Virus record (IMG/VR): IMGVR_UViG_3300025133_000194
Location: 1 to 46,751 of that record
Source: a virus
Strand: one strand, 5' to 3'
Length of the DNA stretch: 46,751 nucleotides
Of the stretch, positions 5,023-46,751 are shown piece by piece. The translations under genes and the position numbers were made by a program. The stretch's first letter is position 1, and every line of letters starts with the position of its first letter. The notes under the pieces are model-generated. The model did not search any database, was not told where the DNA came from, and saw only the letters and a list, made by a program, of their open reading frames with translations.

Positions 5023-8000
5023 TTAATAAACCTTTAAAGTACCACGTCCTTTAGTCTTTTTTTTATTACTAAACTTTTGTTTCTTCTTTTCCTTCTCAAC
5101 ATCTTCAACCCCAAGATTCCACTTACTCCAACCACTAAACATTAAAACTCGCTCTAACGCACCTTGTTGGTTGTTTAAAGATTCTCTAACATTCATTGTT
5201 TTGTTGTACAGTCTATTAAGAGGAACATTTGTTAACGCTTCTATGTAACTTGTATTAGCAGACCATTGTGGATTGTCTATATCAAAAGTTTCCATCTCAT
5301 CTATTGTTTTTCTATTGTAATTAAGAGTTCTCTCTGCATTAACTATTTTTCTAGCCTTAATACCAAGAGGAGGGGAGACGTTTAACGCTTCAACAAGAAC
5401 TGAAGCCTCATCACCATTCCAATCTTTAGCTCTTTCTTTGTGGTACGCAAAAGCCATGTTTTTTAATGTAGAAATTGCCGCGCCCCAAACACCAGCACCT
5501 CTCAATACAGAGTCAAGCGTCCCGTTTACAATCCTTTCTTTTTTAGCCAACATTCTTTTGTCATCTTCGTCATCATCAAACATAGCCATGAATAACGCTG
5601 ATTGTAAAGAGTAGAATATTACGTTTTGTATCGCAAAGTAGTAAGCTATTCTTGATAAATTAGACATATCACTTTGCATTTGTGTTGTGTTGCCTGGTGT
5701 TATTCTTCTATTTTTAATATCTAAAAATGCTTTTTTACCTAATCTATTAAATTGAGACGTAACGTTTTGGAAAGCTAATATAACCTTGCCAAGAGGTGAT
5801 GCTTGTTGTTGTGAAACCATATCAGGTCTTGCTGACTGCTGAGTAGCTTCCGCTAGTATTTCAAAATCAACAAAAGCCTTAGCTTCAGCTTCTTTTTTAC
5901 TCATACCTTCCTTTAGATAGGTATTAATTCTATTCCTCAAAAATGTTGCACCACCAGTGGCAATCGCTATATTATCCCCGATTTGCGTTGGTAAAAAACC
6001 TAGTTCTAATAATTTTTTTATTACTGCTTGAGCTGGATTTTTAGCTCCCTTAACTGAGGCTGCTAACTCAGCACCGTTAACATCTGTTTGTATGCCTTTA
6101 CGTCTTTGCCTCATAAAATCAGAGTTAAATATAGTCGCCCAATCAGCCCAATATTGTTTTTGATTAGCAAAAGCTTTAGCTGCTGCTATAATATTATTGT
6201 CAGCAAAGTTGATAAAATTAACTAGAGACATTTGCTGTAACACAGCAGATCTAACATTAAAGAACATTGTTGCAGCTACAGAACCGTTTAAGTAATTAAG
6301 CCACTGGTTTGTTTGTTTGTTTTGCCCACTAGGTCTGTTTTGACCAGTCTTAATCCTATATACCATATCTTTAATGGCACTAACAACATCAGCCCCATAA
6401 GCAGCTTCTATTTTATTTAAGTTCTCTTGTGAGAATATTGTGTCGACATTTTCATTGAACTCAGCAAAGAAATCCCCTCTACCAATTCTACCTGTAGCGT
6501 CGTCTAAATCCGTTCTTATATCTCCACCTTCCCAGCTTTCAGTAGGTGCAACATATTTTTCTTGCTTAGATATTACATTTAAAGTTTCAGCGTAAGCTTG
6601 TAACTCAGGATCACCCATAACTAAGTCAACTAAATTCTGTTGATCAGTTGGGGATAGTCCAGGGATTTTGTTACCGTGTTTGTTCCATAAATAAACTCTT
6701 ATAGCGTCTTGATACGTAAAATCACCATCTGGAGTTTTCTTAGTTAATTTCTTTTTAACGTTTTCAAATTGCTTGTTTAAAGCTTTATAATCGTTAGCTA
6801 TAGCTTGTTTAGCTGCGTTTAACTCTCTATAAGCTCTATTTAAAGGTCTAATTAAAGCTTTTTCAAAAAAGTCTCTATGAGCGTTACCCTCCTTACCTCT
6901 ACCCATAAAGTTATATAATAATCCAACAAAATCCTCGTGTGATGGTGGTATAAAGAATCTAAATTTACCCTTGCTCTCACCACGTTTTCTAGCTTTAATA
7001 GCTGAAAATCTTTTCTTAGATTCAATACCTGTTATGTTTTCTAATATATCATTGAAGTTTTGATCCATTGATTTGCTAAACTTAACTTTAGCTTGCTGAA
7101 CTTTGGATTTAACATCGAATTGGTCTAGCATGTTTTTAACAGCTTGTACATTTTGTAACGCATCATCAGCAAAATAAAAGTCATTAAAACCTTCACCAAC
7201 TTTATCAGCCATCCAAAGTGCTTTAGCTTCTGATGTAGAATTAGCTAATCCAGTAATATTTTTCAACGGTATATTTAAGCCGTTGGCTTTCAAGAACTCG
7301 TGTATATGCGGAGCAGATTCAGCAGGTCTAGCCGTTAACACAAACATATCTTTGTTACCAAACTTCTTTTGCAATTTCATTGCTTTCTCAAACAACGGGG
7401 CTTTTTGTCCCTCAACTACTTTATTAAATTCTGAAAAATCAAATGTTCCACCTTGTTCTAATATATCAGCTCCTTCGCTAGCAAACTCTTCAGCATCTAA
7501 TCGTCTGTTCTCGTAACCACTAACGAAGTCGTTCATTTTATCTGTAAGTTCGGTAGGCATTGCATCTTGTTGGCCTAATTTATCAGTATTAACCTCCATG
7601 AATCTATCACCAAACATAGTTTTAAAACCATCTTTATTACCTTGAACTGCTTCGTGGTTTTTTGTAACAATCTTATCTAATAAAGATCTTTCTTTTCTAG
7701 CTGCATTTCTTTCTAATGCCACTGGTAACGATGTCTCAACAAACATCATACTAACGTCATAACCTTTGTCTTTAAACTCGTTAACTAGTTTTTCCATAGA
7801 CTTAATAGAACCACCGGTACCGTCAACAACAACTCCATTAGCATTACCTTGGTACTTCATCATCTTTCTTTTAGCAATACCTCTAGCTTGATGTTGTAAA
7901 GAACCTAACTTACTTCTTTGTTCTTTAGTAAAATCATTCATGTTTGCTGGTAACCCAGAGTTTTTCTTTAGCCATTCTAAAGATATATCAGAGTTAACAA

Positions 8001-11000
8001 TTTTAAATCCTTGATCTTTTAAACCTAACTTACTAATAACGTTACCTTTACCGCTACCAGCTCCACCAGCTAGGAATATAACTTTTCTTTGTGGTTTTGG
8101 TAAACCATCTGTATTAGGTATTTTAGCTCTAACACCAGATTTAGTTGTAGCTAGTGTATCATCAAAATCTAGAACTGTAATACCTTTAGATTCTTTTTGA
8201 GTAGATCTAGAAAGCACTATTGCTTTGTTTAGTGTTTTAGTCTCTTTTAGTTGTGGTTTTACGTTCACTTTATTTAAGGACTTAGAAAACTTGATGTCAA
8301 CTTCTCCAGTAAGTTGTTTTACTACCTGTTCATTCGCTCTTGAAACCTCCATCCCTTCCACGCCAAAAAACTCCGCTATAGTTTTTCCTTCATTTATTAA
8401 ATAATAGTTATTAAGATCAATACCAGACTTCGCTAATCTCACTACAGATACTAAACCATCAGGAAGCTTTAAACTTCCGTCTAATAATCTAGGAACTATT
8501 TCATCGTAATAAATATCTGGCATTGATGTTTGATAGCCAGATTCATTTATCAAATTATCATCCGCCTTTAGTAGAGATAACTGCATGTATGATTTTCCTA
8601 TAACCTTCCACATCTTTTTAGTATTCCCAATCTGTGCATTAGCTAACAACGCTTTACCTATTTGGTTTTGGGGATTAGTGTGCTCTTCTACGACTTTTTG
8701 GTCGTATATAGCGTCACCTTTCTGATTTACAGGATATGCTGTTATTGGTGCTAAAATTCTAGTAATAGTATTTTGATGTTTACCAGTATCTTTCAGCATC
8801 TCTTCGAATACCCATATATCCAATGGGTTATTTTTTAAATGATTTTCAACGGCTAAGAAAAAATCAAGTAATAGAGGTAGTTTACCATCCTGTCCTTTTT
8901 TATATCCTTTTTCTTTTGTTTTATTAACAAACTTTTTATCAAGAAATTTATTTTTATTATATGGATCTTTTGCGTATGTTTTTTGCTCTGCAGTGACCTT
9001 GTTTACAACTTTGTTAAACTCTTCAACCGTTTGGAAAAATCCAGCTCTTAAAACACCACCAGTCATTGTTTTTTGAATTAAATCTCTAAACTGTGGGTTT
9101 TTTTCTAAAAATAAATTCAACGCTTGAGCCGCCGTTTCTTTATAAGTTTTCCCGGTCTTTTTTCCATTTATTGTAAATTGAGCATCTACATCTCTTTGGG
9201 ACGTGTAAATTTTATCTTTACCTTCTTTTTGAATTTGAATAAGCGGTGTTAGCTTTATACCCAACGGCTTTGATAATTCTCCTAATTGATATTTAGATAA
9301 CAGTTCAGAGCTTTTGCTAAAAGCAACTTTACTTTGAGCAACTGTAATACTAGCTATTTGCTTTTTTGTTGCCTTTTTTTGTTCTGTTAAAATTCTTTGA
9401 GCCGTAGATAAAGATGTTTGTTGAGCTTGGAACTTAGCTACACCTTTCAATAGTTGTCCGATATTTCTATTGTAGTTATTTAACTCACCACGAGGTGTTA
9501 TACCTAAATCTTCTTGAAATTGTTTTATAGTTTCTGGTGTTGGGTTTTTAAACTCTGATTTTAATTCCCATATAAAAGGTTGAGACGTCTTACCCTTAGA
9601 TCTTTTGTCTGTTTTATTATAAAAGTAGTTTAACATTCTATTAGTTAAACCTAAACCTCTACCTAAAACTTCTCTATCAACATCTATGTTTTCTCCAATT
9701 TCGTTTATATCCGCGTCACTAGCCGTAACGTTTTCTGTTGGCAATATTTTTATAACTTTTTCAGCGGTTTGTGTATCACTATAGAAATTCTGTATATTAC
9801 CAGCTTCAGAAGCCTCTGGTATACCATTAACTATCTTCTTAGCGTAAGTTAAGTTTTTCTTTGGATCAGTAATTTTACTAGCTGGTACATCAAATATTTC
9901 TTCAGCTACTTTACCAGTATTATTATCACTAACCTCTTTAAACGTATCGCCTGGCTTAACCTTAACTATTTTCTTTATAGCATCTGCTTTTCTTTCTACT
10001 TTACCAATCTTAAGAACGTTTGTTTTCTTTCTACGCGTATCAGGGCCTTTATCTGTAGTTTCTGTAGTATCAGCTATTTGCATAGCTTCTGGGGCATCTA
10101 AACTAATACTCTCGTCACGCTTAGCCAATGTTTTAGCTTTTTCAAATATAGTATCATTTTTAGGAGCTATATTGTTATAAACATGAGTTGAGAACGCTCC
10201 TTTTTTAGGGTCATAGTTTCTCACGACAGCGTCGTAATACTCATTAATAGCACTAACAACATTTTCTCTACGTATATCACCTTTTGCTTCCTTGTAACCT
10301 AAAGCCTCTAAAGCTAAAGCTTGATATTGTGGTACTAAAGCGTCTTCAGCGGCGGCAACTTGTCTTGGATTTCCACCTCTTTTTATTGTCTTAATCAGTG
10401 TTTCTGGTGCTTTAGATGTTTTAAGCGTTTCAGAAGTACCATCTCCTTTAGTCGCTCTAGCAGTACCACTACTTAAACTACCCTTATGTATACTTTTATT
10501 ATAATCTTTTAAGAAATTATAAGCACCACGTCCACTTTTAAAATCTACTTTAGCAAGTCCAACGCTAGCAAACATTCTTCTAATAACGTCCGCTATTTTT
10601 GTAAACACACTATCGTTAAACTTTACTTCATTATTAGCTATAGCATCGGAAAATATAGTAAAATATTCATCTAAGTTTTCAGCCATGTATTCTGGCGTAT
10701 AGTTCTTATCTATTCTTTCTTGTATCTTAGCTTTGTTCTCCTCACCTATAATATTTAAGAAATCATTTATAGTTTCTTGGGTTATATTTTTTTGTTGACC
10801 ACTAGCTTTAATTATACCATGTAATAACTCATGATTACCAACGTTGTCACCATAAACCCTAGTTTTTGCTAGATCTTTATTTATAATTATTTCATCCCCA
10901 ATAATACCACCTAAAGAATCAGCAAGTTCAAGATTCTTCTTGTCACCTTTAAATCTCTTTTTTATTTCTTCTTGAGTTAATTCGGTAAATTTTAAACCAT

Positions 11001-12549
11001 ATAGCTCACTGTGTTTTTTGGCAAAAGCCATGTTACCTTGAAACACTCTTTCAGCAACCTCAGTTCTAACCTCTCCAGCCACCTTCTTTCTAGCTTTAAC
11101 ATCTGAAGTTCTACGGTCAACGTTTGCGTATTTATCTATAACGCTATTGATCTCATTCTCTATATTTTCCAAAGTAGTCTCTGCATCAGGAACTGCGAAT
11201 ACACCTTTCTTTTTAGTGTCAGCTTCAGCTTTTTGTCTTTTCCTTTCTAACTCAACTAATTTCTTTCTATCAGTCTCACCTACTCTCTCGTCTATTTGAG
11301 TTTCAAAAACTGCTTCAGCTTGTTTTTCTTTTACAAGATTATCAAGATTTTTATCACCAGTTACTTCAAATTGAATTTTAGCTAAGCTTTCGGCTTTTGT
11401 ATTGGCTACTTTATCTAATACTTCTTTTCTAGTTCTTTTCTCACCGTTTATTTTGTATTCTTTTTTAGCAAGAATGTCAGCAACGTTCACAACACCCTTT
11501 GCCTCAGCAATACCTTCCATTAAAACCTCAGCTATATCAAATTCTTGTCCAGCAGCAACTTGACCTAAAGCCTCACCACCGGAACCACCAAGAGTTTCAA
11601 TACCAGTTACTTGTCTTGCTATCTTGCCTTTACTTGCTCCCGATTTAAGCAGTTTAGCACCAACACCCCTTGATAAACCAACTGTAATCCCCTCAACAGC
11701 ACCAATAGTAGCACCTCTAGCCAAAGCTCTATCTTTTATGTCTTCAAAAAGCTCTTCATCTTCTAGTATAGCCCTAATATTTTCTTTGTTAAAATCTTTG
11801 TCACCAAGCTCTGTTTTCAATAACTCTGTTAATGTTAAAGCCGTTTCCATGGAACCCGTTAAACCAGCAACCGCACCACCAATAGCACCGGTTGCAGTAC
11901 CAACTACAGGGACAAAACTACCAGCGGTACCAGCAATAGCAGCACCTCCCCCAGCAGCAGCAGCAGCTTCTTCGGAATCAAAAAATGTTCTCCCCATTGC
12001 AGCAGCAGAACTAACTATAACTTGTGGTATAACCTGACCTCTTGTCATCACCATGCCTTTCATAAAACCCCAAACACCACCTCCAGCTTCGTTTTTTATT
12101 TCTTCGTATTCACGCATTTCATCTGACGCGCCAGTTTTATCTAAAGCATCACTTACCTCGATGTATCTTCTTAATTCTTCGTCAGATATATTTTTACCTT
12201 TTTTGTAAACATCAAAAGCTTCATCTACAGTTGCTCCTTGAGCTAAACCTTGCTCACCAGCCCTATACAAATCACCAAAAAAATCTGTTACCACGTTTTT
12301 ACCTAAAGCACGCTCTATAGCGGTATCTTCTTCTTTTTGTTCTTGTTCTGGTAATTCAATCTCTGGTAATATAGAGTTAATATACTCTAGTTGGTCTTGA
12401 CTTGGTCCACCTCCAGTATATTTTTGGTAAAAAGTGTTTACGAAGTTGCTAGGGTCTTGTTGTAAAGCATACCCAATCTTAGTATCTATCTCTTCTTGAC
12501 TTAAGTCGCCAGCGTATTTAGAATATAAAGCCCTGTATAGTTCTTCCAT
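5023..12549 (-). CDS. Giant multi-enzyme ejected (polyvalent) virion protein
   Basis: This 2,508-residue protein probably enters the host with the DNA. Domains seen in order: an N-terminal helical part; a Gly/Ala-rich hydrophobic stretch (about 190-235) suited to membrane insertion; a zincin-type motif HELLH (573-577) with a downstream DEYF segment; a sigma-region-2-like stretch (about 745-800, YDPKKG then FSTHVY, F786); helical regions; then a HAD phosphatase with motif I DFDDTL (1461-1466), motif II VLTARP (T1739) and motif IV ADD (D1795/D1796). Between HAD motifs I and II lies a P-loop kinase (GGAGSGKG, 1495-1502; DGTGG later), whose usual Ser/Thr after Lys is Gly. FSKS recurs at 1077, 1421 and 1824. 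The C-terminal part is helical with hydrophobic segments and a basic tail. It follows two other internal proteins, the usual place for ejection proteins. The kinase/phosphatase pairing recalls nucleic-acid end repair; substrates are unknown. Confidence 0.8.
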   Translation of the reverse strand: MEELYRALYSKYAGDLSQEEIDTKIGYALQQDPSNFVNTFYQKYTGGGPSQDQLEYINSILPEIELPEQEQKEEDTAIERALGKNVVTDFFGDLYRAGEQGLAQGATVDEAFDVYKKGKNISDEELRRYIEVSDALDKTGASDEMREYEEIKNEAGGGVWGFMKGMVMTRGQVIPQVIVSSAAAMGRTFFDSEEAAAAAGGGAAIAGTAGSFVPVVGTATGAIGGAVAGLTGSMETALTLTELLKTELGDKDFNKENIRAILEDEELFEDIKDRALARGATIGAVEGITVGLSRGVGAKLLKSGASKGKIARQVTGIETLGGSGGEALGQVAAGQEFDIAEVLMEGIAEAKGVVNVADILAKKEYKINGEKRTRKEVLDKVANTKAESLAKIQFEVTGDKNLDNLVKEKQAEAVFETQIDERVGETDRKKLVELERKRQKAEADTKKKGVFAVPDAETTLENIENEINSVIDKYANVDRRTSDVKARKKVAGEVRTEVAERVFQGNMAFAKKHSELYGLKFTELTQEEIKKRFKGDKKNLELADSLGGIIGDEIIINKDLAKTRVYGDNVGNHELLHGIIKASGQQKNITQETINDFLNIIGEENKAKIQERIDKNYTPEYMAENLDEYFTIFSDAIANNEVKFNDSVFTKIADVIRRMFASVGLAKVDFKSGRGAYNFLKDYNKSIHKGSLSSGTARATKGDGTSETLKTSKAPETLIKTIKRGGNPRQVAAAEDALVPQYQALALEALGYKEAKGDIRRENVVSAINEYYDAVVRNYDPKKGAFSTHVYNNIAPKNDTIFEKAKTLAKRDESISLDAPEAMQIADTTETTDKGPDTRRKKTNVLKIGKVERKADAIKKIVKVKPGDTFKEVSDNNTGKVAEEIFDVPASKITDPKKNLTYAKKIVNGIPEASEAGNIQNFYSDTQTAEKVIKILPTENVTASDADINEIGENIDVDREVLGRGLGLTNRMLNYFYNKTDKRSKGKTSQPFIWELKSEFKNPTPETIKQFQEDLGITPRGELNNYNRNIGQLLKGVAKFQAQQTSLSTAQRILTEQKKATKKQIASITVAQSKVAFSKSSELLSKYQLGELSKPLGIKLTPLIQIQKEGKDKIYTSQRDVDAQFTINGKKTGKTYKETAAQALNLFLEKNPQFRDLIQKTMTGGVLRAGFFQTVEEFNKVVNKVTAEQKTYAKDPYNKNKFLDKKFVNKTKEKGYKKGQDGKLPLLLDFFLAVENHLKNNPLDIWVFEEMLKDTGKHQNTITRILAPITAYPVNQKGDAIYDQKVVEEHTNPQNQIGKALLANAQIGNTKKMWKVIGKSYMQLSLLKADDNLINESGYQTSMPDIYYDEIVPRLLDGSLKLPDGLVSVVRLAKSGIDLNNYYLINEGKTIAEFFGVEGMEVSRANEQVVKQLTGEVDIKFSKSLNKVNVKPQLKETKTLNKAIVLSRSTQKESKGITVLDFDDTLATTKSGVRAKIPNTDGLPKPQRKVIFLAGGAGSGKGNVISKLGLKDQGFKIVNSDISLEWLKKNSGLPANMNDFTKEQRSKLGSLQHQARGIAKRKMMKYQGNANGVVVDGTGGSIKSMEKLVNEFKDKGYDVSMMFVETSLPVALERNAARKERSLLDKIVTKNHEAVQGNKDGFKTMFGDRFMEVNTDKLGQQDAMPTELTDKMNDFVSGYENRRLDAEEFASEGADILEQGGTFDFSEFNKVVEGQKAPLFEKAMKLQKKFGNKDMFVLTARPAESAPHIHEFLKANGLNIPLKNITGLANSTSEAKALWMADKVGEGFNDFYFADDALQNVQAVKNMLDQFDVKSKVQQAKVKFSKSMDQNFNDILENITGIESKKRFSAIKARKRGESKGKFRFFIPPSHEDFVGLLYNFMGRGKEGNAHRDFFEKALIRPLNRAYRELNAAKQAIANDYKALNKQFENVKKKLTKKTPDGDFTYQDAIRVYLWNKHGNKIPGLSPTDQQNLVDLVMGDPELQAYAETLNVISKQEKYVAPTESWEGGDIRTDLDDATGRIGRGDFFAEFNENVDTIFSQENLNKIEAAYGADVVSAIKDMVYRIKTGQNRPSGQNKQTNQWLNYLNGSVAATMFFNVRSAVLQQMSLVNFINFADNNIIAAAKAFANQKQYWADWATIFNSDFMRQRRKGIQTDVNGAELAASVKGAKNPAQAVIKKLLELGFLPTQIGDNIAIATGGATFLRNRINTYLKEGMSKKEAEAKAFVDFEILAEATQQSARPDMVSQQQASPLGKVILAFQNVTSQFNRLGKKAFLDIKNRRITPGNTTQMQSDMSNLSRIAYYFAIQNVIFYSLQSALFMAMFDDDEDDKRMLAKKERIVNGTLDSVLRGAGVWGAAISTLKNMAFAYHKERAKDWNGDEASVLVEALNVSPPLGIKARKIVNAERTLNYNRKTIDEMETFDIDNPQWSANTSYIEALTNVPLNRLYNKTMNVRESLNNQQGALERVLMFSGWSKWNLGVEDVEKEKKKQKFSNKKKTKGRGTLKVY

Positions 12550-45108: not shown

Positions 45109-45123
45109 ACTTAGTATGATTAC

Positions 45124-45153
45124 ATAGTAAATAAGTAATTTACACAGTGACAA
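45124..45153 (-). promoter_or_regulatory. Possible leftward promoter for the late block
   Basis: On the minus strand TTGTCA (45153-45148) and TACTAT (45129-45124) are 18 bp apart, like a sigma70 promoter, with a short leader to the ATG at 45108. The -35-like box lies inside the direct repeat at 45146-45166. The Bacteroidota consensus TTTG / TAnnTTTG is not present, so the assignment is weak. Confidence 0.35.
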
Positions 45154-45166
45154 TAGCCTATTACTC
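45146..45166. repeat. Direct repeat, copy 1 (100-bp spacing)
   Basis: The segment aGTGACAaTAGCCTaTTACTC matches copy 2 at 45246-45266 in 18 of 21 positions and lies exactly 100 bp from it. The minus-strand promoter-like -35 box is inside this copy. The pair could be binding sites for a regulator or replication protein. Confidence 0.6.
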
Positions 45167-45188
45167 CTATCTCTACTATCCTATCTCT

Positions 45189-45229
45189 ACCCTTAGATAT
45201 TACTCTAGTAATATCCTTAAGTAAAGGGT
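45189..45229. repeat. Palindrome with outer arms
   Basis: A perfect inverted repeat, GATATTACT and AGTAATATC (45196-45204 and 45207-45215) with a 2-bp centre, is enclosed by outer arms ACCCTTA (45189-45195) and TAAAGGGT (45222-45229, one extra A). It lies midway between the two direct repeats, so it may be the centre of an operator or origin-type site. Confidence 0.65.
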
Positions 45230-45245
45230 ATTAAAAAACGAATAC

Positions 45246-45266
45246 TGTGACACTAGCCTGTTACTC
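45246..45266. repeat. Direct repeat, copy 2 (100-bp spacing)
   Basis: The segment tGTGACAcTAGCCTgTTACTC is the second copy of the repeat at 45146-45166. It keeps GTGACA, TAGCCT and TTACTC identical. It lies between the palindrome and the GC-rich island. Confidence 0.6.
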
Positions 45267-45315
45267 TAATACTTAGCTACCTAATGTCACATAAATTGTG
45301 TTGTAAATATAGAAC

Positions 45316-45413
45316 GATTGCACCGCTCCCTATCCCCCTGGTACCCAGCCCGTTACCAAAACGGTTTTCATTTAGCCCACGGGCCCCCTCGATCGATCAT
45401 TTCGCCCGAAGTT
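45316..45413. other. GC-rich island with small hairpins
   Basis: About 100 bp of markedly GC-rich DNA in an AT-rich window, with CCGTT/AACGG (45350-45354 with 45360-45364), GCCCGT/ACGGGC (45348-45353 with 45379-45384) and clustered short palindromes (GGTACC, GGGCCC, GATCGATC). It has no coding signature. It may be a structured RNA, a packaging or nick site, or the binding site of a phage protein. Confidence 0.45.
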
Positions 45414-45476
45414 TTTGCGTTTTTCTTTTCGTGTCATATCGTCATGACATACTGTCACAATATCAACTACTAATAT

Positions 45477-45510
45477 TTACAAACTAGATACGACTAACAT
45501 TGGATAATAT
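45477..45510 (+). promoter_or_regulatory. 34-bp promoter-like element, copy 1
   Basis: TTACAAACTAGATACGA, a 7-bp variable spacer and TGGATAATAT. It lies 36 bp before the ATG at 45547. The right half contains an extended -10-like TAATAT; the left half is conserved in all copies. The host-type TAnnTTTG box is absent, so it may be read by a phage or altered sigma factor. Confidence 0.65.
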
Positions 45511-45546
45511 ATATGTAAACAAATTAATAACTAAATAAATTAAATT

Positions 45547-45771
45547 ATGTCAAAAGAAATCAATCAAATTACTACGAAAAGATTCGTAATCAGAAAAACA
45601 TTAATCGGTAAAAATGCTATCATTACTTTTACTAATAAGAAAAATGAAACATTTACTTATAATCACGATAAAGTTTATAATGATAATAAAGAAAAATTCG
45701 ATAATATGAATTGCTTCAATAAGTACGGAAGTTACACATGTACTAATAACTTACCAACTTTCGCAAGATAG
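45547..45771 (+). CDS. Small early-type protein (paralogue 1)
   Basis: This 74-residue protein starts MSKEINQITTKRFVIRKTLI and continues with a beta-hairpin-like segment (NAIITFTNKKNETFTYNHD) and an Asn/Lys-rich end with two Cys (NCFNKYGSYTCTNN). Its first 30 residues are closely similar to the partial gene at 46663, with the shared core KRFVIRK.LIGKN..ITF. No family is recognised. It follows the first 34-bp promoter-like element and the divergent control region. Small AT-rich genes at the start of a rightward cluster are typical of early phage genes that alter host functions. Confidence 0.6.
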   Translation: MSKEINQITTKRFVIRKTLIGKNAIITFTNKKNETFTYNHDKVYNDNKEKFDNMNCFNKYGSYTCTNNLPTFAR

Positions 45772-45848
45772 TTAGTATAAAAAGTCCAGTTAGTTATTCG
45801 ATTACTGGTATAAACAAAATGATCGATCACTCAGTTCCCCGAGGTGGA

Positions 45849-45884
45849 TCTATAAAGAACTATAGATAGAAGTTCGACTCTTCT
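45849..45884 (+). other. Two adjacent hairpins, one T-arm-like
   Basis: TCTATA/TATAGA (45849-45854 with 45861-45866, 6-base loop) is followed after one base by AGAAG-TTCGACT-CTTCT (45868-45884), a 5-bp stem with a 7-base loop that exactly fits a tRNA T-arm. No matching acceptor arm or anticodon loop was found. It could be a tRNA-like fragment or an RNA 3' structure. Confidence 0.35.
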
Positions 45885-45916
45885 CGTTACTACTAATAAT
45901 CAATAAATAAATAACT

Positions 45917-45994
45917 ATGTCAAAAGTACTAGAAAGAAACATCGCAGAATTAATAATGATAACACTAACAATCATAATATTAATTACAAACTAA
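45917..45994 (+). CDS. 25-residue single-span membrane micropeptide
   Basis: A short frame with an ATG after an AATAAATAACT leader typical of this cluster. The product starts MSKVLERNIAEL and continues as a hydrophobic helix of about 13 residues (IMITLTIIILI) ending in TN. Its first residues MSK match the two paralogues nearby. Its stop codon TAA lies inside the second 34-bp element (TTACAAACTAA), so the promoter-like element overlaps the gene end. Translation is not proven. If real, it would sit in the inner membrane. Confidence 0.4.
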   Translation: MSKVLERNIAELIMITLTIIILITN

Positions 45995-46017
45995 ATACGA
46001 TCTAATCTGGATAATAT
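45984..46017 (+). promoter_or_regulatory. 34-bp promoter-like element, copy 2
   Basis: TTACAAACTAAATACGA, 7-bp spacer, TGGATAATAT; 24 bp before the ATG at 46042. It overlaps the 3' end of the micropeptide frame. The left half is identical to copy 4. Confidence 0.65.
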
Positions 46018-46041
46018 TAATATAAACTAATAAATAACAAT

Positions 46042-46194
46042 ATGACTTACGAACACGAAATCACTTTCAACGACGACTCAATACAATACTTGACGTCAAC
46101 AACTAATTATCTTAACGATGACGACAAACAATTCTTAACTGACTTACTCGTCGACTTAAATACAATAAAATCGGTGAATTCATATAAACTATAA
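46042..46194 (+). CDS. Small acidic early-type protein
   Basis: This 50-residue protein (start MTYEHEITFNDDSIQYLT) is acidic and soluble, with a helix-rich second half including DDDKQFLTDLLVDLNTIKS. It is preceded by the second 34-bp element and a TAATAACAAT leader, which supports an active start. No family is recognised. Small acidic phage proteins often bind host enzymes, but nothing in the sequence shows this. It was identified because it lies between two elements of the promoter-like family. Confidence 0.55.
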   Translation: MTYEHEITFNDDSIQYLTSTTNYLNDDDKQFLTDLLVDLNTIKSVNSYKL

Positions 46195-46202
46195 TTCACA
46201 TT

Positions 46203-46218
46203 TGTAAACTAATTTACA
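46203..46218. repeat. Inverted repeat TGTAAA/TTTACA
   Basis: A perfect 6-bp inverted repeat with a 4-bp centre (TGTAAA-CTAA-TTTACA) lies just after the small acidic gene. A related TTTACA-A-TGTAAA palindrome is inside the third 34-bp element. Both could be operator half-sites. Confidence 0.45.
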
Positions 46219-46286
46219 GTTGTGAACATTGAGTGTCGGTGGTATACTTCAATACAATTTCTATCAACTTAATAAACAATATACTT

Positions 46287-46320
46287 TTACAATGTAAATA
46301 CGAAGCATATTGGATAATAT
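46287..46320 (+). promoter_or_regulatory. 34-bp promoter-like element, copy 3
   Basis: TTACAATGTAAATACGA, 7-bp spacer, TGGATAATAT; 22 bp before the ATG at 46343. The left half differs from the other copies (TGT for ACT), forming TTTACA-A-TGTAAA. The conserved region extends on into AACTGAAC, as in copy 4. Confidence 0.65.
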
Positions 46321-46342
46321 AACTGAACTTAAAAATTATACT

Positions 46343-46573
46343 ATGACAATTAAACTAATCAATCAATCAACTAAAAAAATTAATAATAATACACTTATTA
46401 TCTATAACTTATTAATAAATAATAAATTTAATTTAGAAACAACTAAAGTTATATCTAATAATAAATTTAGTCATTACACAATAAATGACACTCAACATAA
46501 TATATTACTCAACAATAATATAATTATAAATAACAAAATATTCTTTAACAAAATAACTAAATTACTTAAATAA
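46343..46573 (+). CDS. Asn/Ile-rich small protein
   Basis: I start this gene at the ATG at 46343 (76 residues, MTIKLINQSTKKINNN), since a TTG at 46310 lies inside the promoter-like element. The protein is rich in Asn, Ile, Lys and Leu, with strand-like segments such as NTLIIYNLLINNKF and HNILLNNNIIINNK. About one residue in four is Asn, which reflects very AT-rich codons. No family is recognised. It follows the third 34-bp element and precedes the fourth by only 2 bp. A role as a small host-interaction protein is possible but unproven. Confidence 0.55.
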   Translation: MTIKLINQSTKKINNNTLIIYNLLINNKFNLETTKVISNNKFSHYTINDTQHNILLNNNIIINNKIFFNKITKLLK

Positions 46574-46575
46574 TA

Positions 46576-46609
46576 TTACAAACTAAATACGAATGTAATT
46601 GGATAATAT
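46576..46609 (+). promoter_or_regulatory. 34-bp promoter-like element, copy 4
   Basis: TTACAAACTAAATACGA, 7-bp spacer, TGGATAATAT; 53 bp before the ATG at 46663. It shares a longer downstream match (AACTGAAC) with copy 3. Confidence 0.65.
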
Positions 46610-46662
46610 AACTGAACAAACAAACAATAAATAACTTAATTAATAACTTAAAATAAATAATA

Positions 46663-46751
46663 TGTCAAAGTTAACAAAAGTTGAAGAACTTAAAACTAAA
46701 AGATTTGTAATTAGAAAGTCTCTAATTGGTAAAAATGTAGTAATAACATTT
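46663..46751 (+). CDS. Small early-type protein (paralogue 2), N-terminal part
   Basis: The frame runs off the right edge. The visible 29 residues start MSKLTKVEELKTKRFVIRK and continue SLIGKNVVITF, closely matching the start of the gene at 45547 (KRFVIRK.LIGKN..ITF). This makes it a second copy of the same family, preceded by the fourth 34-bp element. No further domain can be judged from the fragment. The repeated gene and promoter layout suggests an array of paralogues that continues outside the window. Confidence 0.6.

Follow-up and report, generated by a model that had tools for sequence, protein, structure and literature searches.

The window, by which we mean the whole stretch of DNA analysed here, comprises all 46,751 bases of its IMG/VR record and is a linear fragment of a marine bacteriophage. 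On terminase and portal it groups with MW202828 (Manatee Spring), Elemovirus (Flavobacterium phages) and the Callevirus phi38:1 (Cellulophaga). Almost the whole window is a leftward late arm encoding terminase, portal, virion proteins, GroEL and GroES; a giant 2508 residue protein encoded on its minus strand (5023-12549) contains an HExxH motif, a HAD-like LDFDDT motif and a P-loop kinase-like domain. The end of the window is a rightward, early-type arm of small genes, each preceded by a copy of a bipartite element, and the two arms are separated by an AT-rich control region within which lies a ~100 bp GC-rich stretch (about 45320-45425). Two operator-like sites also sit between the arms. The features of this region are as follows.

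45148..45163, plus strand: operator-like half site TGACAATAGCCTATTA, candidate site for a helix-turn-helix (HTH) regulator
45246..45291, plus strand: operator-like inverted repeat TGTGACACTAGCCTGTTA ... TAATGTCACA (site at 45248)
45477..45510, plus strand: element copy 1, TTACAAACTAGATACGA-CTAACAT-TGGATAATAT (upstream block 45477-45493, TGGATAATAT 45501-45510)
45547..45771, plus strand: 74-aa gene after copy 1, with relatives in 39 IMG/VR loci
45984..46017, plus strand: element copy 2, TTACAAACTAAATACGA-TCTAATC-TGGATAATAT (upstream block 45984-46000, TGGATAATAT 46008-46017)
46042..46194, plus strand: 50-aa ORF after copy 2
46287..46320, plus strand: element copy 3, TTACAATGTAAATACGA-AGCATAT-TGGATAATAT (upstream block 46287-46303, TGGATAATAT 46311-46320)
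46343..46573, plus strand: 76-aa ORF after copy 3
46576..46609, plus strand: element copy 4, TTACAAACTAAATACGA-ATGTAAT-TGGATAATAT (upstream block 46576-46592, TGGATAATAT 46600-46609)
46662..46751, plus strand: gene start after copy 4, truncated by the record end and a paralogue of the 45547 gene

The four copies of this 34-letter element, TTACAAACTAAATACGA-N7-TGGATAATAT, are all on the plus strand and confined to the early-type arm, in the last 1.3 kb of the window; the paralogues at 45547-45771 and 46662-46751 each have a promoter-like copy of their own. TGGATAATAT is the same in all four copies, the first block varies slightly between them, and the next ATG follows after 36, 24, 22 and 52 nt (copies 1-4). 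An initial annotation had reported copies at 45477, 45984, 46287 and 46576 with two conserved blocks and an exact 7 bp spacer of varying sequence, 22-53 bp before an ATG; the positions and the spacer are as it described, and the distances measure 22-52 nt. Allowing up to 4 mismatches over the 27 fixed positions, a search of the window returned exactly these 4 sites and no fifth copy in the remaining 45 kb, the reversed control pattern gave 0 matches, and neither 300 dinucleotide-shuffled versions of the window nor 1000 of the 1.35-kb local region yielded a site with fewer than 6 mismatches. Searched by itself with one mismatch allowed, TGGATAATAT occurs 15 times versus a background of 6.05 +/- 2.69, which is near background, so the evidence resides in the combination of two blocks and fixed spacing.

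A phage sigma factor and its association with the element

The element was initially described as unlike the Bacteroidota TTTG/TAnnTTTG promoter, and indeed none of six flavobacterial sigma motifs (PMC9723704) resembles it. The flavobacterial sigma-A promoter (PMC6847099, PMC9723704) is similar in overall size, and the host core polymerase is likely the same, but its -33 TTTG and -7 TAnnTTTG are both absent from the phage element; no host-type TTG-N17-23-TAnnTTTG occurs on the plus strand of window positions 45109-46751. Because the element is unlike flavobacterial promoters, we searched for a phage factor as its reader.

Four near-complete relatives of the window (G001, G016, G018 and G013) carry 6, 8, 7 and 13 copies of the element, respectively, on one strand and in one arm, with 0 matches in the reversed-sequence control; G016 is the nearest of the four to the window (large terminase 83% identical). 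In the replication arm, all four encode a ~250 residue protein that has both sigma regions 2 and 4, matches Sigma70_r2 and r4, phrog_351 (E 3.5e-25) and, above cut-off, TIGR02937, and aligns with the solved structures of FliA and SigA (E to 1.5e-11). The G018 version is broken into two ORFs, probably through a frameshift. No sigma gene is present in the window itself, which is a fragment without the arm that carries sigma in the relatives. Among the tested contigs closest to the window by terminase, only G001 has the sigma gene; the others probably break off inside or ahead of the early arm, possibly owing to the early-arm repeats. A profile search recovered ~525 sigma relatives from IMG/VR viral contigs, and no relatives of sigma or of an adjoining HTH partner were found in 50,697 phage records. 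In bacterial genome contigs the sigma profile matched 8 MAG contigs. Some of these are from Sphingobacteriales, Saprospiraceae and Lewinella, which would fit Bacteroidota hosts; the rest may be misbinned.

Co-occurrence was assessed on loci fetched by sigma similarity alone, the element playing no part in their selection. It is present in 102 of the 114 sigma loci with at least 8 kb upstream (mean 5.5 copies), and all 192 sigma loci together contain 782 matches versus 40 in reversed sequence, although these are counts of loci and not of independent genomes because some contigs are represented by two overlapping loci. On the strand of sigma lie 732 of the 782 matches, and nearly all fall within 10 kb upstream of the sigma gene. 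Neither element nor sigma was found in MW202828, elemoE or phi38:1; in 12 contigs of the MW202828 clade there was no sigma, and GATAATAT before an ATG was at background (28 versus 25 in the control). Element and sigma are thus present together and absent together across the clades compared, with a lineage effect possible; this contrast perhaps reflects one evolutionary event and so supports the link without proving it.

Geometry, placement and the promoter interpretation

An exact scan of IMG/VR found TACGA-N7-TGGATAATAT in at least 120 stretches, with TTACAAACTAAATACGA-N7-TGGATAATATaaATgTAA as the consensus among the matches listed and an ATG mostly close downstream; the broader search of relatives that the initial annotation had proposed found the element in hundreds of related IMG/VR contigs. 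Spacing is rigid: in loci fetched by sigma similarity, ATACGA-N9-GATAATA occurs 512 times, the N8 form twice and the N10 form 0 times, with 5 occurrences on the opposite strand. Only 22% of the bases of copies lie inside ORFs of at least 60 aa, versus 78% for random positions. Measured from GATAATAT, the next ATG is a median of 23 nt away, with a sharp peak formed by 139 of 941 copies in which the ATG is exactly 4 nt downstream. Occurrence inside genes and away from starts had been named at the outset as evidence against a promoter; copies are instead mostly intergenic, with ATGs peaking just downstream, a placement that would be expected of a promoter. If GATAAT occupies -12 to -7, an ATG 4 nt on falls at +1, giving a leaderless start. 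In Flavobacterium most mRNAs have a leader; the leaderless share is 5.5% in F. psychrophilum (PMC9723704).

Judged from these regularities the element is very probably a promoter, and would represent a promoter class shared by a large group of uncultured phages, at ~5 copies in each genome; no description of it was found in the literature. Of the two proposals first made for it, a new early promoter class or an operator of a phage regulator, the former is well supported as to class by the fixed spacing, single strand, intergenic location before ATGs and recurrence in hundreds of contigs, while early timing is no more than a possible reading of the early-type and replication arm in which the copies sit. 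An operator is disfavoured. Repetition before many genes would suit an operator or an RNA leader element as well as a promoter core, and the MW202828 palindrome GTGTCGTTAACGACAC is likewise repeated before early-type genes, but the present element has no dyad symmetry, consists of two rigidly spaced blocks of which one is -10-like, and stands at distances of 4 to >50 nt from the ATG. The operator-like palindromes are separate sites (45148 and 45248 in the window), and we regard an operator or leader function as highly improbable. The MW202828 repeat is a 16 bp perfect palindrome of unrelated sequence, in a phage without this sigma; at least 11 copies occur (L205:43733-49891 and L206:733-5173), mostly shortly before early-type genes. 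A repeat search in elemoE and phi38:1 found nothing comparable. A T7-like polymerase promoter was also considered, since TACGACT recalls TAATACGACTCACTATAG, and was set aside because the variable 7-nt gap does not fit; PF00940 brought up no such polymerase, though it gave nothing in the control genomes either.

Candidate readers of the element

The probable reader of this promoter class is host RNA polymerase with the phage sigma bound. Under this model the host core enzyme would combine with the ~250 residue sigma-70-family factor, GATAATAT would serve as the -10 element, the 17 bp block would cover the -35 region and some of the spacer, and transcription would begin ~5 nt past GATAATAT, in many cases on the ATG or immediately upstream of it. 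The sigma gene lies in the replication arm, past its own presumed promoters, so that the circuit should self-amplify once started; the window's own genome presumably encodes sigma in its missing part. By comparison with E. coli-type TTGACA-N17-TATAAT, GATAAT matches 5 of 6 positions; the -35 position differs, and the 17 bp block reaches into the spacer. The model builds on what was observed by computation, namely the repeat with its exact spacing, strand, intergenic site and relation to the ATG, the sigma co-occurrence and the sigma-70 homology. In its favour, the four near-complete relatives all encode sigma and carry 6-13 copies each. It must be tempered by the facts that co-occurrence could be common descent, that the ATG overlaps the element end, upstream of the predicted start, in 16 of 941 copies, and that sigma may not read the upstream block, which changes fully while region 4.2 stays YVRVS[QE]LKK-like.

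Phage sigmas of this general kind are known. In phage 7-11 (PMC8948821), sigma gp47 acts with the host core on late promoters GTAAtg-(16)-aCTA, and as described that system resembles the present one in having its own phage sigma (here, in the relatives), bipartite promoters repeated before transcription units and the same predicted type of reader. It differs in sequence, in the use of its promoters for late genes where the present copies occupy the early-type and replication arm, and in the upstream part, which here is long (17 bp) and swapped between lineages. Phage phiEco32 (PMC8948821) likewise combines a phage sigma, gp36, with a -10-like promoter element (tAATGTAtA, start 6-8 bp downstream), but its promoter is a single element with no upstream block, and gp36 is without the region 4 homologue that the present sigma has. 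The sigmas of both phages serve middle or late genes (PMC8948821), so that the early-type location of the present copies would, by analogy, count against the phage sigma as reader. Dependence on phage-made sigma would make these promoters delayed-early or middle, unless sigma comes with the virion. Although the kind of system is thus known, what appears to be new is the sequence, the phage family, the rigid two-block layout and an upstream block that can be exchanged. With a promoter defined and a candidate reader proposed, transcription in this large group of uncultured phages becomes open to in vitro tests before any member has been isolated.

The main rival assigns the element, as an early promoter, to host polymerase with one of the host's own sigmas and leaves other (late) promoters to the phage sigma. 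This would account for copies that precede the sigma gene in the arm presumably transcribed first, for an upstream block that changes while the phage sigma remains constant, as if tracking different hosts, and for the late-promoter-like sequence of another kind, TGTAATNATA following an operator, that stands before the late arm. We nevertheless consider it unlikely, as TAnnTTTG, TAnnTTGY, sigma-54 and the ECF CGT box are all unlike GATAATAT (PMC9723704), and the element is missing from related phages without sigma.

Still less probable is a reader carried in the virion and injected, either a factor or a polymerase, for example part of the giant 2508 residue protein. Such a reader would account for the switching-on, at entry, of genes that have no other promoter, and the giant protein is found in all four motif-bearing relatives with no match in MW202828, elemoE or phi38:1. 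Its motifs, however, are protease-, HAD- and kinase-like, and as a virion RNA polymerase it was rejected for having no conserved polymerase motif; PF00940 gave no match in 14 records, nor in the control genomes.

Exchange of the upstream block and the HTH regulator

In sigma loci without TTACAAA, the GATAATAT block and the geometry are kept and the upstream block is different. Classes seen include the following.

Upstream-block class CACGGACTTA: loci L402/L238, L317 and L424
Upstream-block class TCGAA..TTAATACGA: locus L398
Upstream-block class GCAGACA.AATACG: loci L443 and L441

Classes switch many times on the sigma tree, a fast tree with many weak branches, and some switches separate close sisters (L451 versus L442; L410 beside L324 and L408), while sigma region 4.2 is almost the same between classes. 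Since lineages swap the block although their sigma barely changes, its reader may be an additional factor; either subtle differences in sigma suffice, or the reader is another, exchangeable factor. We tentatively propose, as a possibility we would not favour on present evidence, a three-part promoter in which GATAATAT, the part that sigma would read, is frozen family-wide and the upstream block (TTACAAAC, CACGGACTTA, TCGAA or GCAGACA) is swapped wholesale along with a putative exchangeable factor that reads it. If true, related phages could keep their transcription programmes apart, for example in co-infection. The exchange of the block against a near-constant sigma offers a natural experiment on the evolution of promoter specificity.

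Gene content within ~10 kb of sigma, compared between classes, contained nothing accounting for the switch. The HTH partner was rejected as reader of the upstream block because it is absent from 5 of 5 TCGAA-class loci, as well as from L442 and L339 of the TTACAAAC class, and already has an operator-like site of its own. Some CACGGACTTA-class phages encode a second, ECF-like sigma with regions 2 and 4 (L317:7985-8509, L424:7994-8518, L425:7847-8440); this was rejected as reader of the class since it occurs in only 3 of its loci and is not found on the 67-kb contig of L238. Covariation between motif positions and residues gave a few strong columns, among them position 7 with S246 and position 8 with Q/E230 (region 4.2). 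We set aside covariation with sigma or HTH residues as evidence, because it is weak and confounded by relatedness such that one clade could produce it, and the single pairs test had too little power.

The gene adjoining sigma encodes the HTH partner, a 206 residue protein with a C-terminal helix-turn-helix, whose model had no significant match in a PDB fold search. A palindrome, TGTGACAnTAGCCTnTTA ... TAAYAGGCTAnTGTCACA, overlaps the start of this gene (offset -10 in 81 cases), and its half-site, with one mismatch allowed, occurs in 110 of 124 loci with the HTH gene, in 0 of 7 without it and 0 times in the reversed control. Two sites of this type, at 45148 and 45248, occur in the window. In relatives, a TGTAATNATA sequence often follows the operator-like site towards the late arm; in the window, TGTAATCATA (45124-45115, minus strand; consensus TGTAATNATA) is a possible late promoter, placed ~22 nt downstream of the operator with the first late gene following after 6 nt. 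A plausible model is that the HTH protein would regulate both its own gene and the change-over to the late arm. In contig G016 the ligase-HTH-sigma-ERF segment occurs twice (L215:1617-5061 and a matching segment in L218), with the two sigmas 72% identical, reflecting either duplication or chimeric assembly.
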